Shown piece by piece: positions 48,882 to 52,651 of a stretch of DNA of 64,000 nucleotides (positions are counted from its first letter, which is position 1; each line of letters starts with the position of its first letter). The position numbers were made by a program, and so were the translations under genes. The notes below the pieces were generated by a model. That model saw nothing but the letters and a program-made list of their open reading frames with translations, did no database searches and was not told the DNA's origin. Where the stretch lies: contig NZ_JACVBX010000005.1 of the NCBI RefSeq assembly GCF_014852585.1, forward strand, positions 248,001 to 312,000. Direction: 5' to 3'. The DNA is from Pseudomonas sp. PDM18. Lineage in GTDB: Bacteria > Pseudomonadota > Gammaproteobacteria > Pseudomonadales > Pseudomonadaceae.

Positions 48882-48988
48882 CCAGTGGGACAACAGTTTT
48901 CCCCGCTGCCGCCGATACACTCAACGACCCCGTCTCTTCGCCCGCCACTGGCGGGCGTTTCGTTGTGCGTTCGGAGGACAACAAGAAA

Positions 48989-50917
48989 ATGCGCCTGCGA
49001 AGTATCCAGACCCAGCTCATCCTCAGCATGGGCGCCGCCCTGCTCATCAGCCTTCTCATCGTTCTCGGTCTCTACGCCGTGCTGGTCAACCGCCTCAGTG
49101 AGCGCTACCTGCTCGACCAGGCGCTTCCGGCAAGCATCCGGGCGATCGCCAACGACTTCGAAAAACGCCTAACCGGCCCCATCACCGCAGCAGCTGGCAT
49201 CGCCGACAACACCCTGGTGCAGGACTGGCTGGCCGCGGGCGAAAGCCCGGAGAAACTGGCCGAATTCACTCGCTACCTGGGCGGCATCCGCGCGTCGCAG
49301 AAGGCCTTCTCGGCGCTGATCACCTCCAACGCCAGCGGCGCCTACTACAGCGACAAGGGCATGGAGCGCACGCTGAGCCGCAGCGAGCCGAAGGACAGTT
49401 GGTACTTCCAGTTCATCGACAGCGGCAAACCACGCATGTGGAACATCGACACCGACGGCAGCACCGGCGAACTGGCGCTGTTCATCGACCAGCGCGTGGA
49501 GCGTGACGGCAAGCTGCTGGGCATCGCCGGGCTGGGCCTGGAGATGCGCGAACTGTCGACGCTGATCCGTGACTTCCGCTTCGGCCAGTCCGGGCGCGTG
49601 TACCTGGTGAAGAACGACGGCCAGGTGCAGATCCATCCCGACGTCTCGCTGCCCAAGGGACGCAGCCTCGGCGACCTGATCGGCGCCAGCGCCGCTGGCG
49701 CGCTGCTCGGCCAGCAGGGCTTCCACAGCGCCCGCTTCGAGCGCGACGGCGAGGACTACCTGGCCGCCAGCCTGCCGCTGCATGACCTGGGCTGGACCCT
49801 GGTGAGCGAAGTACCGGAAGCGGAAATCTACGCCGACGCCCGCGAGGCGCTGGCCTTCTCCGGCCTCGCCGGAGCCCTGGTCGCCCTGCTCTGCCTGGCG
49901 CTGGTGGTGCTGATGGCGCGCAGCCTGGCCCGGCCGATCCGCCAGGTCACCCGCGCGTTGCTGGAAATCGGCGGAGGCGGCGGTGATCTCACCCGCCGAC
50001 TGGACGACAGCCGCGCGGACGAACTGGGCGACCTGGCCCGTGGCTTTAACCGCTTCCTCGAAGGCCAGCGCGCGCTGATCAGCGCCGTACTCGGCACCAG
50101 CCAGCAACTGCTGCGCACTGTCAGCGAAGTGGCGCAGGTGGTGGACAACACCGCCGACCGCGCCGGCCGCCAGCAGGAGATGACCGACATGGTCGCCACG
50201 GCGGTGAACGAAATGGGCAGCACGGTGCAGGAAATCGCCCGCAACGCCGAGCAGGCCGCCAGCGCCTCGCAGCAGGCGCGTGAGGAAGCCGGCGAAGCAC
50301 GGCGCGTGGTCGGCGGCTCGCTGCAAGTCGGCCAGCGCATGTCCGGGGAGATCGGCGAAGCGGCTAGCGCCGTGGGCGAGCTGGCGGGGCAGGTGGCGAG
50401 CATCGACCAGGTGCTGGCGGTGATCCGTGGCGTGTCCGAGCAGACCAACCTGCTCGCCCTCAACGCCGCCATCGAGGCGGCGCGCGCGGGGGAACTGGGC
50501 CGTGGCTTCGCCGTGGTGGCCGATGAGGTCCGCACGCTGGCGAGCCGCACACAGGGCTCAACCGACGAAATCCTCACCATCATCCAGCGCCTGAAGGGCG
50601 GCGCGGAGGCCGCGGTGCGCTCGATGCAGTCCAGCCAGCAGACCACCGGGCAGAGCCTGGCCGCCAGCGAACAGGCCGGTGCCTCTCTGGGCGCCATCGC
50701 CGACCAGGTGGAGCGCATCAGCGACATCAACCACCAGGTTGCCACGGCCACCGAGGAACAGTCGGCGGTGACCGAGGAGATCAACCGCAACGTGCAGGGC
50801 ATCGCCGACCTCGCCCACGCCACTACCCGCGAAGTGCAGCACGGCCGAGAACAGTGCCGCGAGCTGCGCAACCTGGCCGATGACCTGGCACGGCAGATGG
50901 CGCAGTTCCGCCTTTGA
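48989..50917 (+). CDS. Methyl-accepting chemotaxis protein with dCache ligand-binding domain
   Basis: A 642-residue chemoreceptor. Membrane helix 1 (about 13-38), a roughly 250-residue periplasmic double-Cache domain (with [19 protein letters not shown] and [18 protein letters not shown]), helix 2 (about 290-312), HAMP, then the cytoplasmic signalling domain with the hairpin tip [19 protein letters not shown]. The ATG at 48989 has GGAGG 11 nt upstream; a GTG at 48965 is the alternative. It lies 107 bp after xdhC on the same strand, which suggests, but does not prove, a purine or related ligand as sensed by McpH of P. putida. Confidence 0.9.
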
Positions 50918-50928
50918 ACGGCGGCTCT

Positions 50929-50955
50929 GGCGCCGGCCTCGTGCCGGCGCCTTTT
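50929..50955 (+). terminator. Terminator after the chemoreceptor gene
   Basis: GGCGCCGGC (50929-50937), loop CTCGT, GCCGGCGCC (50943-50951), then TTTT: a perfect 9-bp stem 12 bp after the stop. Confidence 0.92.
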
Positions 50956-50959
50956 CCCC

Positions 50960-51365
50960 AGAGTTACCCACAGATTTTCCAAGCGAAGCGGCGGGCTTTT
51001 CGCTATGCCTGGCGGGTGATGACGACCGATCAGCGCACGAGGTGTCTCGCCAGCGAGACACCTTGCCCACAAGTTGCCCACAGATTGTCCAGAGAGTTGC
51101 CCCCACCCCTCCGGACGCCGCCCGCGAATCCGTCAACAAGCCCGAGCCCAGGCCCTGCAAGCCCTGCATCAATCCAATGAATAATTCACCGAGTGGTCAG
51201 AAGTGGCGTCTGACGACATTCAGGGGGAGTTTCACCCACACCTTTTCCACAGCTTGTTCATATTTTGCTCAACAGGCCTGACAGCAATTGATCAAAAAAT
51301 AAGCGAAGCGCTGAAGACTGCGAAGTACGTGGGCAGCAGAGGTCCTGCCACAGGTTATCCACAGG
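50960..51365. other. Non-coding region with clustered DnaA-box-like motifs
   Basis: About 400 bp without a gene. DnaA-box-like 9-mers on the plus strand: TTACCCACA (50964-50972), TTGCCCACA (51063-51071 and 51074-51082), TTGTCCAGA (51085-51093), TCACCCACA (51232-51240), TTTTCCACA (51243-51251) and a perfect TTATCCACA (51355-51363). An AT-rich stretch follows the sixth box (51253-51305). Several boxes are spaced exactly 11 bp apart. DnaA binding is inferred from the motif only. Confidence 0.6.
51040..51063. repeat. 24-bp inverted repeat next to the DnaA-box-like array
   Basis: AGGTGTCTCGC (51040-51050), CA, GCGAGACACCT (51053-51063): 11-bp arms with no mismatch. The right arm runs directly into the first of the phased TTGCCCACA motifs. 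Confidence 0.9.
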
Positions 51366-51392
51366 CGGTTCCACGGTGTTTGGGGAGAAGAA

Positions 51393-51983
51393 TCAGGCGT
51401 CCAGCAACTGCGCCCGCACGCGACCACGGCTGAGGTCGCCCAGCAGCTTCTGTAGCGGCTCGACCTGGGTGGTCGGCAGGTTCAGCGTCATGCGCACGCC
51501 TTGCGCGCCAAAGGCTTCGTCTTCGACGCTGGCGCCGAGCGCCAGCACTCGCACCTTGAACAGCGCGTGCTCGGCGAAGCTGCAGTCGAATGCCAGGCGG
51601 CGGCTGGGCACCAGTTCGATGCGTTCGGCGTCCTGCAGGCACTTCGCCGCGCAGCCGCCATAGGCGCGGGCCAGGCCGCCGGTGCCGAGCTTGATGCCAC
51701 CGAACCAGCGACTGACCACAACCACCACGCGGTCCATGTCCTGCCCCTCGATGGCGACCAGCATAGGCCGGCCGGCGGTGCCGCCGGGCTCGCCGTCGTC
51801 GCTGAAGCGGTACTGGTTGCCCAGCTTCCAGGCCCAGCAGTTGTGCCCGGCGCTGGGGTCCCGGTGGGCGGCGAGGAAGGCCTGGGCCTCGGCCTCGCTG
51901 GCAATGGGTGCGGCGACGCAGTGGAAGCGGCTCTTGCGGATGTCTTCGTGGTAAACCGCGGGGCCGGCGAGGGTGAAACTCAT
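51393..51983 (-). CDS. YigZ/IMPACT family protein
   Basis: A 196-residue protein of the YigZ (UPF0029/IMPACT) family. The N-terminal domain has the conserved HNCWAWKLG and FSDDGEPGGTAGRPML motifs and GIKLGTGGLARAYG; a short DUF1949-like domain closes the C-terminus. Members are linked to translation or RNA functions but the activity is not settled. The start overlaps the stop of the TetR gene (ATGA), which fixes the ATG at 51983 and indicates coupling. Confidence 0.88.
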   Translation of the reverse strand: MSFTLAGPAVYHEDIRKSRFHCVAAPIASEAEAQAFLAAHRDPSAGHNCWAWKLGNQYRFSDDGEPGGTAGRPMLVAIEGQDMDRVVVVVSRWFGGIKLGTGGLARAYGGCAAKCLQDAERIELVPSRRLAFDCSFAEHALFKVRVLALGASVEDEAFGAQGVRMTLNLPTTQVEPLQKLLGDLSRGRVRAQLLDA

Positions 51984-52651
51984 GCCGAGGCTGGCGGCGG
52001 CGTCAGCCCGCAACCCTTGAGGATGATGCGGATCAGGTTGTCGCTGGCATCGCTGAAGTCCTGCCTGGACATTCGCTTGCGGCCGGTGACGAAGCCGATC
52101 TGGGTGGCGAAGTCGGCGTAGTGCTGGGTGCTGCTCCAGATCAGGAAGATCAGGTTCACCGGGTCCACCGCGTCCATCTTGCCGGCGTCGATCCAGGCCT
52201 GAAACACCGCGGCGCGGCCGGCGAACCAGGCGCGGTAATCCTGGCTGAAGTGCTCGGACAGGCATTCGCCGCCACTGATAATCTCCATGGCGAACACCCG
52301 GGAGGCCCGCGGGTAACGGCGGGAGAATTCCATCTTGGCGCGAATGTAGGTGGCCAGCGCAACGGCCGGATCATCGTCCACGGTCAGGTGGTTGAAGGTG
52401 CTGTCCCACAGCTCGAGGATGTTGCTCAGCACCGCCACATACAGCCCCAGCTTGTTGCTGAAGTAGTAATGCAGGTTGGCCTTGGGCAGGCCGACGCGCT
52501 GGGCGATGGTGTTCATGCTGGTGCCCTTGAAGCCGTGGCGGGCGAACTCCTCCTCGGCGGCGGCGAGGATGGCTTCCTCGTTCTTCTGGCGAATGCGGCC
52601 GGCGGGCTTTTCGCCGTGGGGCGCGGTATGGGCGGGTACCTGGAGGGTCAT
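51980..52651 (-). CDS. TetR-family regulator, RutR-like
   Basis: A 223-residue repressor. The N-terminal HTH (about 25-72) reads ILAAAEEEFARHGFKGTSMN...VGLPKANLHYYFSNK; the C-terminal domain (IWSSTQHYADFATQIGF) resembles the RutR/YcdC type that senses pyrimidines. In P. aeruginosa a similar regulator is encoded close to xdhABC (from memory), as it is here. It is cotranscribed with the YigZ gene. RutR-like half-sites TGACCA/TGGTCA were noticed upstream of the Tsx-like gene and xdhA, but regulation of these is an inference. Confidence 0.85.
   Translation of the reverse strand: MTLQVPAHTAPHGEKPAGRIRQKNEEAILAAAEEEFARHGFKGTSMNTIAQRVGLPKANLHYYFSNKLGLYVAVLSNILELWDSTFNHLTVDDDPAVALATYIRAKMEFSRRYPRASRVFAMEIISGGECLSEHFSQDYRAWFAGRAAVFQAWIDAGKMDAVDPVNLIFLIWSSTQHYADFATQIGFVTGRKRMSRQDFSDASDNLIRIILKGCGLTPPPASA

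Follow-up and report, generated by a model that had tools for sequence, protein, structure and literature searches.

Why does a short gene-free spacer, away from the replication origin, hold a phased array of DnaA-box-like motifs? This question was raised by an initial annotation, made from the letters alone, of a 64,000-nucleotide stretch of the Pseudomonas sp. PDM18 genome (the window). It was addressed by comparison with orthologous spacers, with related modules in other genomes and with DnaA control sites of E. coli. The features are collected in Table 1.

DnaA boxes in a spacer between convergent genes

The spacer is bounded by the stop codons of the chemoreceptor (MCP) gene (50915–50917) and of the YigZ gene (51393–51395), and the 475 gene-free base pairs initially described were found as such. 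Where at least seven box-like 9-mers had been announced, one of them perfect, the + strand holds eleven with at most two mismatches to TTATNCACA, the perfect one being at 51355. The 11-bp phasing of the boxes at 51063, 51074 and 51085 and of those at 51232 and 51243 was likewise recovered, and 51254 continues the second run. Over the 380 kb scanned of contig C55, the spacer is the richest 480-bp segment in DnaA boxes, and five of the nine double boxes on the scanned contig fall in it. The sequence TTNNCCACANNTTNNCCACA, with at most one mismatch, has six matches in the 6.43-Mb genome, three of them in the spacer. Single boxes (at most one mismatch) are in mild excess in the 64-kb window (18 for 10.1 expected), and 3 of the 18 are in the spacer.

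Table 1 Features of the spacer and of its flanking genes (positions in the window)
Feature	Position	Strand	Remarks
Chemoreceptor (MCP) gene	48965..50917	+	Pfam dCache, HAMP, MCPsignal
Non-coding spacer	50918..51392 (475 bp)		Between convergent genes; holds the whole element; orthologues aligned
G+C-rich inverted repeat, then TTTT	50929..50951	+	Column identity 0.81–0.82 (conserved)
Two boxes, 50952 and 50964	50952..50972	+	Column identity 0.99 and 0.94
Inverted repeat of the initial annotation	51040..51063		Arms 51040–51050/51053–51063 perfect; not conserved
Phased head-to-tail box run	51063..51105	+	Starts 51063, 51074, 51085; weaker copy 51097
Probable eroded second module	51180..51262	+	Boxes 51232, 51243, 51254; R2 15.1 bits (match 51180–51259)
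Intact DARS-like module (~110 bp)	51283..51390	+	R2 62.5 bits, E 3e-18 for 120 kb
Predicted Fis-consensus site (GnnYAnnnnnTRnnC)	51290..51304		Exact match; starts 65 bp before first box
First (outer) DnaA box, perfect TTATCCACA	51355..51363	+	DARS box III position; identity 1.00 in 15 orthologues
Second DnaA box, weak (GGTTCCACG, 5/9)	51367..51375	+	DARS box II position; 3-bp gap
Inverted DnaA box (7/9)	51381..51389	-	DARS box I position; 5-bp gap; R2 alignment
YigZ gene	51393..52001	-	UPF0029, DUF1949; start provisional

The spacer could in principle be a transcription feature of the flanking genes, that is, a promoter, a small RNA or a terminator region. The conserved G+C-rich inverted repeat followed by TTTT is probably the terminator of the chemoreceptor gene; the terminator scan did not call it. 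As the two genes are convergent, a promoter in the spacer is unlikely, and the promoter scan of the spacer revealed no promoter-like site, which leaves little of the initial suggestion of a DnaA-regulated control region. With Rfam, 19 of the 20 fetched loci described below had no match that reached the gathering score, and the window's spacer had a single one, below threshold. That a transcription feature explains the locus is very improbable.

An accessory replication origin had also been proposed. The DnaA boxes do adjoin a short A/T-rich stretch, as had been noticed, and P. aeruginosa is reported to have two autonomously replicating sequences (PMC4403523). However, reading of the spacer disclosed no long A/T-rich stretch such as that of oriC, and the genome possesses a normal origin. 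The dnaA gene is on contig C7, where the rpmH-dnaA spacer in front of it contains boxes as well as an A/T-rich stretch, in agreement with the initial statement that the present locus is not the usual oriC. The suggested GC-skew check was run in G003, a complete relative, and no lasting trend change was seen near the orthologous locus, at +174 kb from dnaA. Thus, the spacer lacks the extended A/T-rich unwinding element of an oriC, and the G003 locus lacks the turn in GC skew. An accessory origin is hardly credible.

Around the normal origin itself, a zone rich in single boxes was observed on one side of oriC (contig C7:73410–133159, loci L062 and L123–L125). All 46 TTWTNCACA motifs of this 142-kb contig, out of 209 genome-wide, are within 60 kb upstream of dnaA, five of them in oriC, and there are none in the 60 kb on the other side. 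The same one-sided zone is found in G003 from -60 to 0 kb (L110–L112), with 36 motifs in the left 60 kb and none in the right 60 kb.

Conserved boxes and the layout of the intact module

A first search gave matches in 23 of 37 genomes, from which 18 MCP–yigZ spacers were taken, including that of the window. Fifteen were aligned for counting, L018–L020 being excluded as longer and more diverged. The mean pairwise identity was 0.877 in the box columns and 0.637 in the other columns, and when the box mask was shifted circularly, the identity observed for the boxes was reached in none of the 477 shifts. A rapid drift of the 9-mers among relatives had been named as an outcome that would speak against a role of DnaA. 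The reverse was observed in this alignment, which had also been proposed at the outset: the 9-mers are what is conserved, at fixed spacing, and the inverted repeat drifts. The fourfold sites of yigZ have an identity of 0.737, so that part of the non-box spacer drifts faster than fourfold sites, the identity of which is probably raised by codon bias.

The boxes at 51063, 51074 and 51085 have column identities of 0.82–0.92. Measured from box 51243, box 51355 is 112 bp away in 16 of the 21 rows examined and 125–126 bp away in 4, and no such box pair was found by the script in the remaining row, L020. In L082 and L084, boxes follow yigZ although the fetched stretch showed no MCP gene. A scan of genome contigs with an exact 28-nt pattern returned seven records, all from Pseudomonas, the P. 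nitroreducens group being nearest; it is uninformative on the wider range. The inverted repeat next to the array does have the perfect arms initially described, but it is not part of the conserved element, being among the least conserved stretches of the spacer (mean column identity 0.44–0.47), and it was rejected as a functional part. When the matching interval was tested for stems in 41 non-redundant modules, the mean was 5.12, little more than the 4.51 (sd 1.17) of shuffles, three modules reaching 12.

The perfect box is the first of a set of three. It is followed by a weak box in the same direction, after GGC, and by an inverted box, after GTGTT, in the layout →3 bp→5 bp←. The inverted third box and the Fis-like site around the perfect box had been missed by the initial annotation, and the element runs to 51389, beyond the end given there. 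The common core of E. coli DARS1 and DARS2 consists of three equally spaced boxes, box I being reversed, at which DnaA is described to meet head to head (PMC5742627, PMC10380432). As read in strain MG1655, DARS1 is TAATACACA-3-TTATCCACA-5-inverted AGTGGATAA and DARS2, at the DARS1 spacing, is TCTTACACC-3-TTATCCACA-5-inverted CTGGGATAA. The window has the same core, with boxes II and III in one direction and box I reversed, and the same 3- and 5-bp spacing; its middle box is weak. A weak middle box and a perfect outer box are found in the window and in many Pseudomonas copies. In contrast, the perfect box of E. coli and of most copies of the class is the middle one, at the presumed position of the head-to-head contact. 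As judged from the sequence, the structural features of a DARS-type site are present and the affinity pattern is unusual.

DARS2 is reported to be activated by IHF and Fis (PMC5742627, PMC10380432). Upstream of the boxes of the window, a Fis site as in the regulatory part of DARS2 is predicted, by consensus only; this consensus, GnnYAnnnnnTRnnC, was taken from a figure legend of PMC10380432. It is not rare, with 144 exact matches in the 64-kb window, both strands counted, and the argument therefore rests on the fixed place of the site and not on the match as such. The full consensus is present in 9 of the 18 rows of alignment A1, and its G and C are found at their 15-bp distance in all 18. Between 50915 and 51395, there is no match with at most one mismatch to WATCAANNNNTTR, which we take to be the IHF consensus, and the element was not filed as DARS2-type for that reason. 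As a separate observation, exact Fis-consensus matches overlap the head-to-tail DnaA boxes at 51065–51090 and 51256–51270, where they are partly forced by the repeats themselves; this recalls the overlap of box V and Fis sites described for DARS2 (PMC10380432).

A family of modules in Pseudomonadaceae and beyond

Two models were used to search for other copies of the module. R1, a sequence-only model of the 3' half, has several matches in every one of the 25 genus genomes; of 146 family genomes, 128 have one match or more. Twenty R1 places were fetched, mostly strong or clustered matches, and 14 of them were read. Starting from the 92 TTDTCCACA anchors in the 20 loci, a forward box (at least 6/9) is found at +12, that is, after a 3-bp gap, in 42% of cases, versus about 1% at background offsets. 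An inverted box at +26, after a further 5-bp gap, is found in 61%, versus about 2% for the background; R1 ends before this box, which thus played no part in the selection of the loci. Of the 21 occurrences of the motif TCARAAA, 17 are exactly 63 bp upstream of the anchor. Fifty-four copies satisfy the geometry; in their upstream part, G(-65) and C(-51) carry the most information, and the consensus of these copies has YA and TR at the places required for Fis.

R2 comprises 117 positions and derives from 35 dispersed copies, to which the spacer of the window contributed none; eight of these copies lie next to yigZ or in its neighbourhood in other genomes (L151, L156, L157, L158), and four come from other parts of the genome that contains the window (L139, L140). 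A plain weight matrix made from 34 of these rows scores the window copy at 84.3 and its G003 orthologue at 81.9. Over 920 kb, no other real place scores above -15.6, and the best reversed or complemented control reaches -9.5. At E <= 0.001, R2 has 23 matches in the genome to which the window belongs and between 11 and 34 in each of seven other complete genomes; of 59 family genomes, 56 have one match or more, the maximum being 35. The best reading of these counts is that the genome carries about ten sites, with the 23 modules, of a family expanded in Pseudomonadaceae. The longest array among the 20 fetched places, L152 (G162:C156:91200–94800), has five module pairs over about 2 kb, with 124 bp within each pair. 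A single 37-nt query found no match to plasmid copies of the module.

Remnants of further modules may be present in the spacer. In addition to the probable second module, R2 matches weakly at 51069–51105 (11.6 bits) and at 50933–50978 (10.6 bits). Unrelated stretches of the window reach 16.0, 12.1 and 11.5 bits, so that the scores of the eroded modules mean little by themselves. The place of the second module scores 22.0 bits in L003 and 30.1 bits in L018, and L019, L020, L082 and L083 have three tandem modules of at least 46 bits each at the locus. On the strength of these orthologue scores and three-module arrays, the clade of the window has probably kept one intact module, while the others decayed into box runs. 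The phased run at 51063–51105 and the two boxes at 50952–50972 are possibly such eroded modules.

Tandem and dispersed intergenic copies are also what would be expected of a selfish or neutral repeat carrying DnaA boxes by chance. The R178 repeat of P. fluorescens is a candidate, since its size and copy number are comparable (101 bp, 9–28 copies, with internal 11-bp inverted repeats; PMC2718517). The likeness (about 100 bp, tens of intergenic copies) is to its published description only, and DnaA goes unnamed in the main text of PMC2718517. However, the geometry of the boxes is rigid while the filling is divergent, and the orthologous place is kept: of the 25 genus genomes checked, 22 have an R2 match next to yigZ. 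In G013, yigZ is present with no R2 match beside it; G010 and G037 match R1, their neighbouring genes being outside the comparison. A similar layout, in one to three copies, is moreover found across the class. A selfish or neutral dispersed repeat is improbable.

At E <= 0.01, R2 matches 90 of 114 gammaproteobacterial genomes, including the window's own, where about one match is expected by chance over the 114; these E-values are rough, and many of the matches cover the box part only. The other 89 genomes have one to three matches, except G196 (6), G208 (4) and G251 (4). At the DARS offsets, a second box matching 8/9 or better and an inverted box matching 7/9 or better are present in 22 of the best 29 class loci; a centred search did not find them in the other seven (L164, L166, L175, L180, L183, L185, L186). 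The perfect box is usually the middle one in the 22 loci; in Pseudomonas copies, it is the outer box that is usually stronger. The full Fis consensus at the Pseudomonas distance is present in just 4 of the 29 loci, so that the Fis-like part looks family-specific.

As to chromosomal placement, all sites among the matches listed are within 0.49–0.55 of the half chromosome from dnaA in G002, G003, G005, G016 and G140. The chance of this is 0.0007–0.0097 per genome, the genomes not being independent and the matches listed reaching about E 8e-6. In G102 and G142, some of the matches listed are in the far half. Modules linked to yigZ occur in other genera (G040, G047, G055, G056, G063, G065, G073, G077, G140), and yigZ is about 0.75 Mb from dnaA in G140 and G063; a fixed distance from oriC was rejected as a family feature on this ground. 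The G003 sites at -171, -515 and -772 kb and at +174, +505 and +815 kb from dnaA are roughly mirrored about the origin. With P 0.04, in one genome and post hoc, such symmetry is not claimed.

Putative function and relation to known control sites

The spacer is read here as a DARS-type DnaA-binding control site, made of one intact module and probably eroded tandem modules in a single orientation and belonging to a family expanded in Pseudomonadaceae; a probability of about 0.55 is assigned to this reading. Its geometry and its similarity to DARS1 are best explained in this way, and the function is proposed on this basis. R2 recognises DARS1 at 20.7 bits (E 3.3e-5 for 120 kb), and the weight matrix gives 16.1, a figure that is indicative only, as the backgrounds were G+C-rich Pseudomonas DNA. 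R2 misses the core of DARS2; its best match in the fetched DARS2 stretch (13.4 bits) is elsewhere. That match belongs to another →3→5← set in the rppH-ygdT region of MG1655 (L159:835–896), about 0.3 kb from the DARS2 core, with boxes TTCTTCACA, CTATCCACA and inverted GGTGAATAA and a weight-matrix score of 15.1.

Binding of DnaA to the array is likely from its boxes, that of Fis to the module may be presumed from the consensus, and a reactivation of ADP-DnaA by the array is suggested by analogy. As in E. coli DARS, DnaA molecules on the middle and inverted boxes would meet head to head, the outer box would stabilise the assembly, and Fis would tune it. ADP would then leave DnaA, and the apo-DnaA would reload ATP, whereby the cell would regain initiation-competent DnaA.

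The initial annotation had offered DnaA reactivation or titration. Reactivation is the better fit, given the DARS core geometry and the recognition of DARS1 by R2; titration survives in the main rival, a datA-like sink. In that case, the array would bind ATP-DnaA soon after initiation and lower its availability, through titration or through ATP hydrolysis on the head-to-tail runs. Such runs do resemble datA or oriC more than DARS, which is a point against the DARS reading, and the 2-bp gaps between head-to-tail boxes of the spacer correspond to the spacing reported to be preferred by E. coli DnaA in vivo (PMC11317965). The position of the locus is also suitable. It is 139–216 kb from dnaA, on the 3' side, in 11 of the 12 relatives with both on one contig (G001, G002, G003, G004, G005, G007, G009, G016, G018, G023, G037), and hence is copied early; in the exception, G008, it is about 70 kb away on the opposite side. 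However, the most conserved block of the spacer contains a head-to-head pair with a reversed box, whereas the essential boxes of datA are described as all pointing in one direction, with an essential IHF site between them (PMC5742627). The spacer lacks an IHF consensus, R2 has no match in the fetched datA stretch (L161), and the yigZ-linked modules of other genera can be as far as about 0.75 Mb from dnaA. A sink is judged unlikely.

If the DARS-type reading holds, a broader proposal may be ventured with reserve. In Pseudomonadaceae, a distributed network of about ten arrays (20–35 DnaA-Fis modules), confined to the origin half in several complete genomes, may have taken the place of the two-site DARS scheme. 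ATP-DnaA level and initiation timing would then be set by the summed, replication-dependent dosage of the arrays and not by a single dominant site. About twenty modules per Pseudomonas genome, versus two known sites in E. coli, would provide a testable handle on replication timing. Candidate sites would be mapped in a tractable group, a family of intergenic repeats might be explained, and a control system known as two E. coli sites could exist as many tandem ones. With the R2 model, a class-wide search for DARS-like sites becomes a simple computation, and the effects of dosage and position are testable by deletion of single arrays.

DARS-like sequences are conserved in many proteobacteria according to a review (PMC10380432), and their presence as such is therefore not new. 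The novelty lies in the copy number, in the arrangement in tandem and in the Fis-like site at its fixed place; that DARS-like sequences occur outside E. coli is no part of it. In a literature search, which was not exhaustive, the DARS papers found concern E. coli, and none on DARS in Pseudomonas was encountered.

Among the known systems, datA shares with the window a cluster of boxes in a spacer, some of them head to tail with a 3-bp gap; no →3→5← core was seen in the fetched datA stretch. DARS2, beside mutH, has the same core layout as the window module, and the Fis sites reported for it (PMC10380432) have a counterpart in the Fis-consensus site of the window. It differs in being a single site, in having a longer regulatory part, and in needing IHF sites, of which the spacer of the window has none by consensus. 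DARS1, in the bioD-uvrB spacer, resembles the module by its →3 bp→5 bp← boxes and its size of about 100 bp; it is a single site in E. coli, with the perfect box in the middle instead of the outer position that it occupies in the window.
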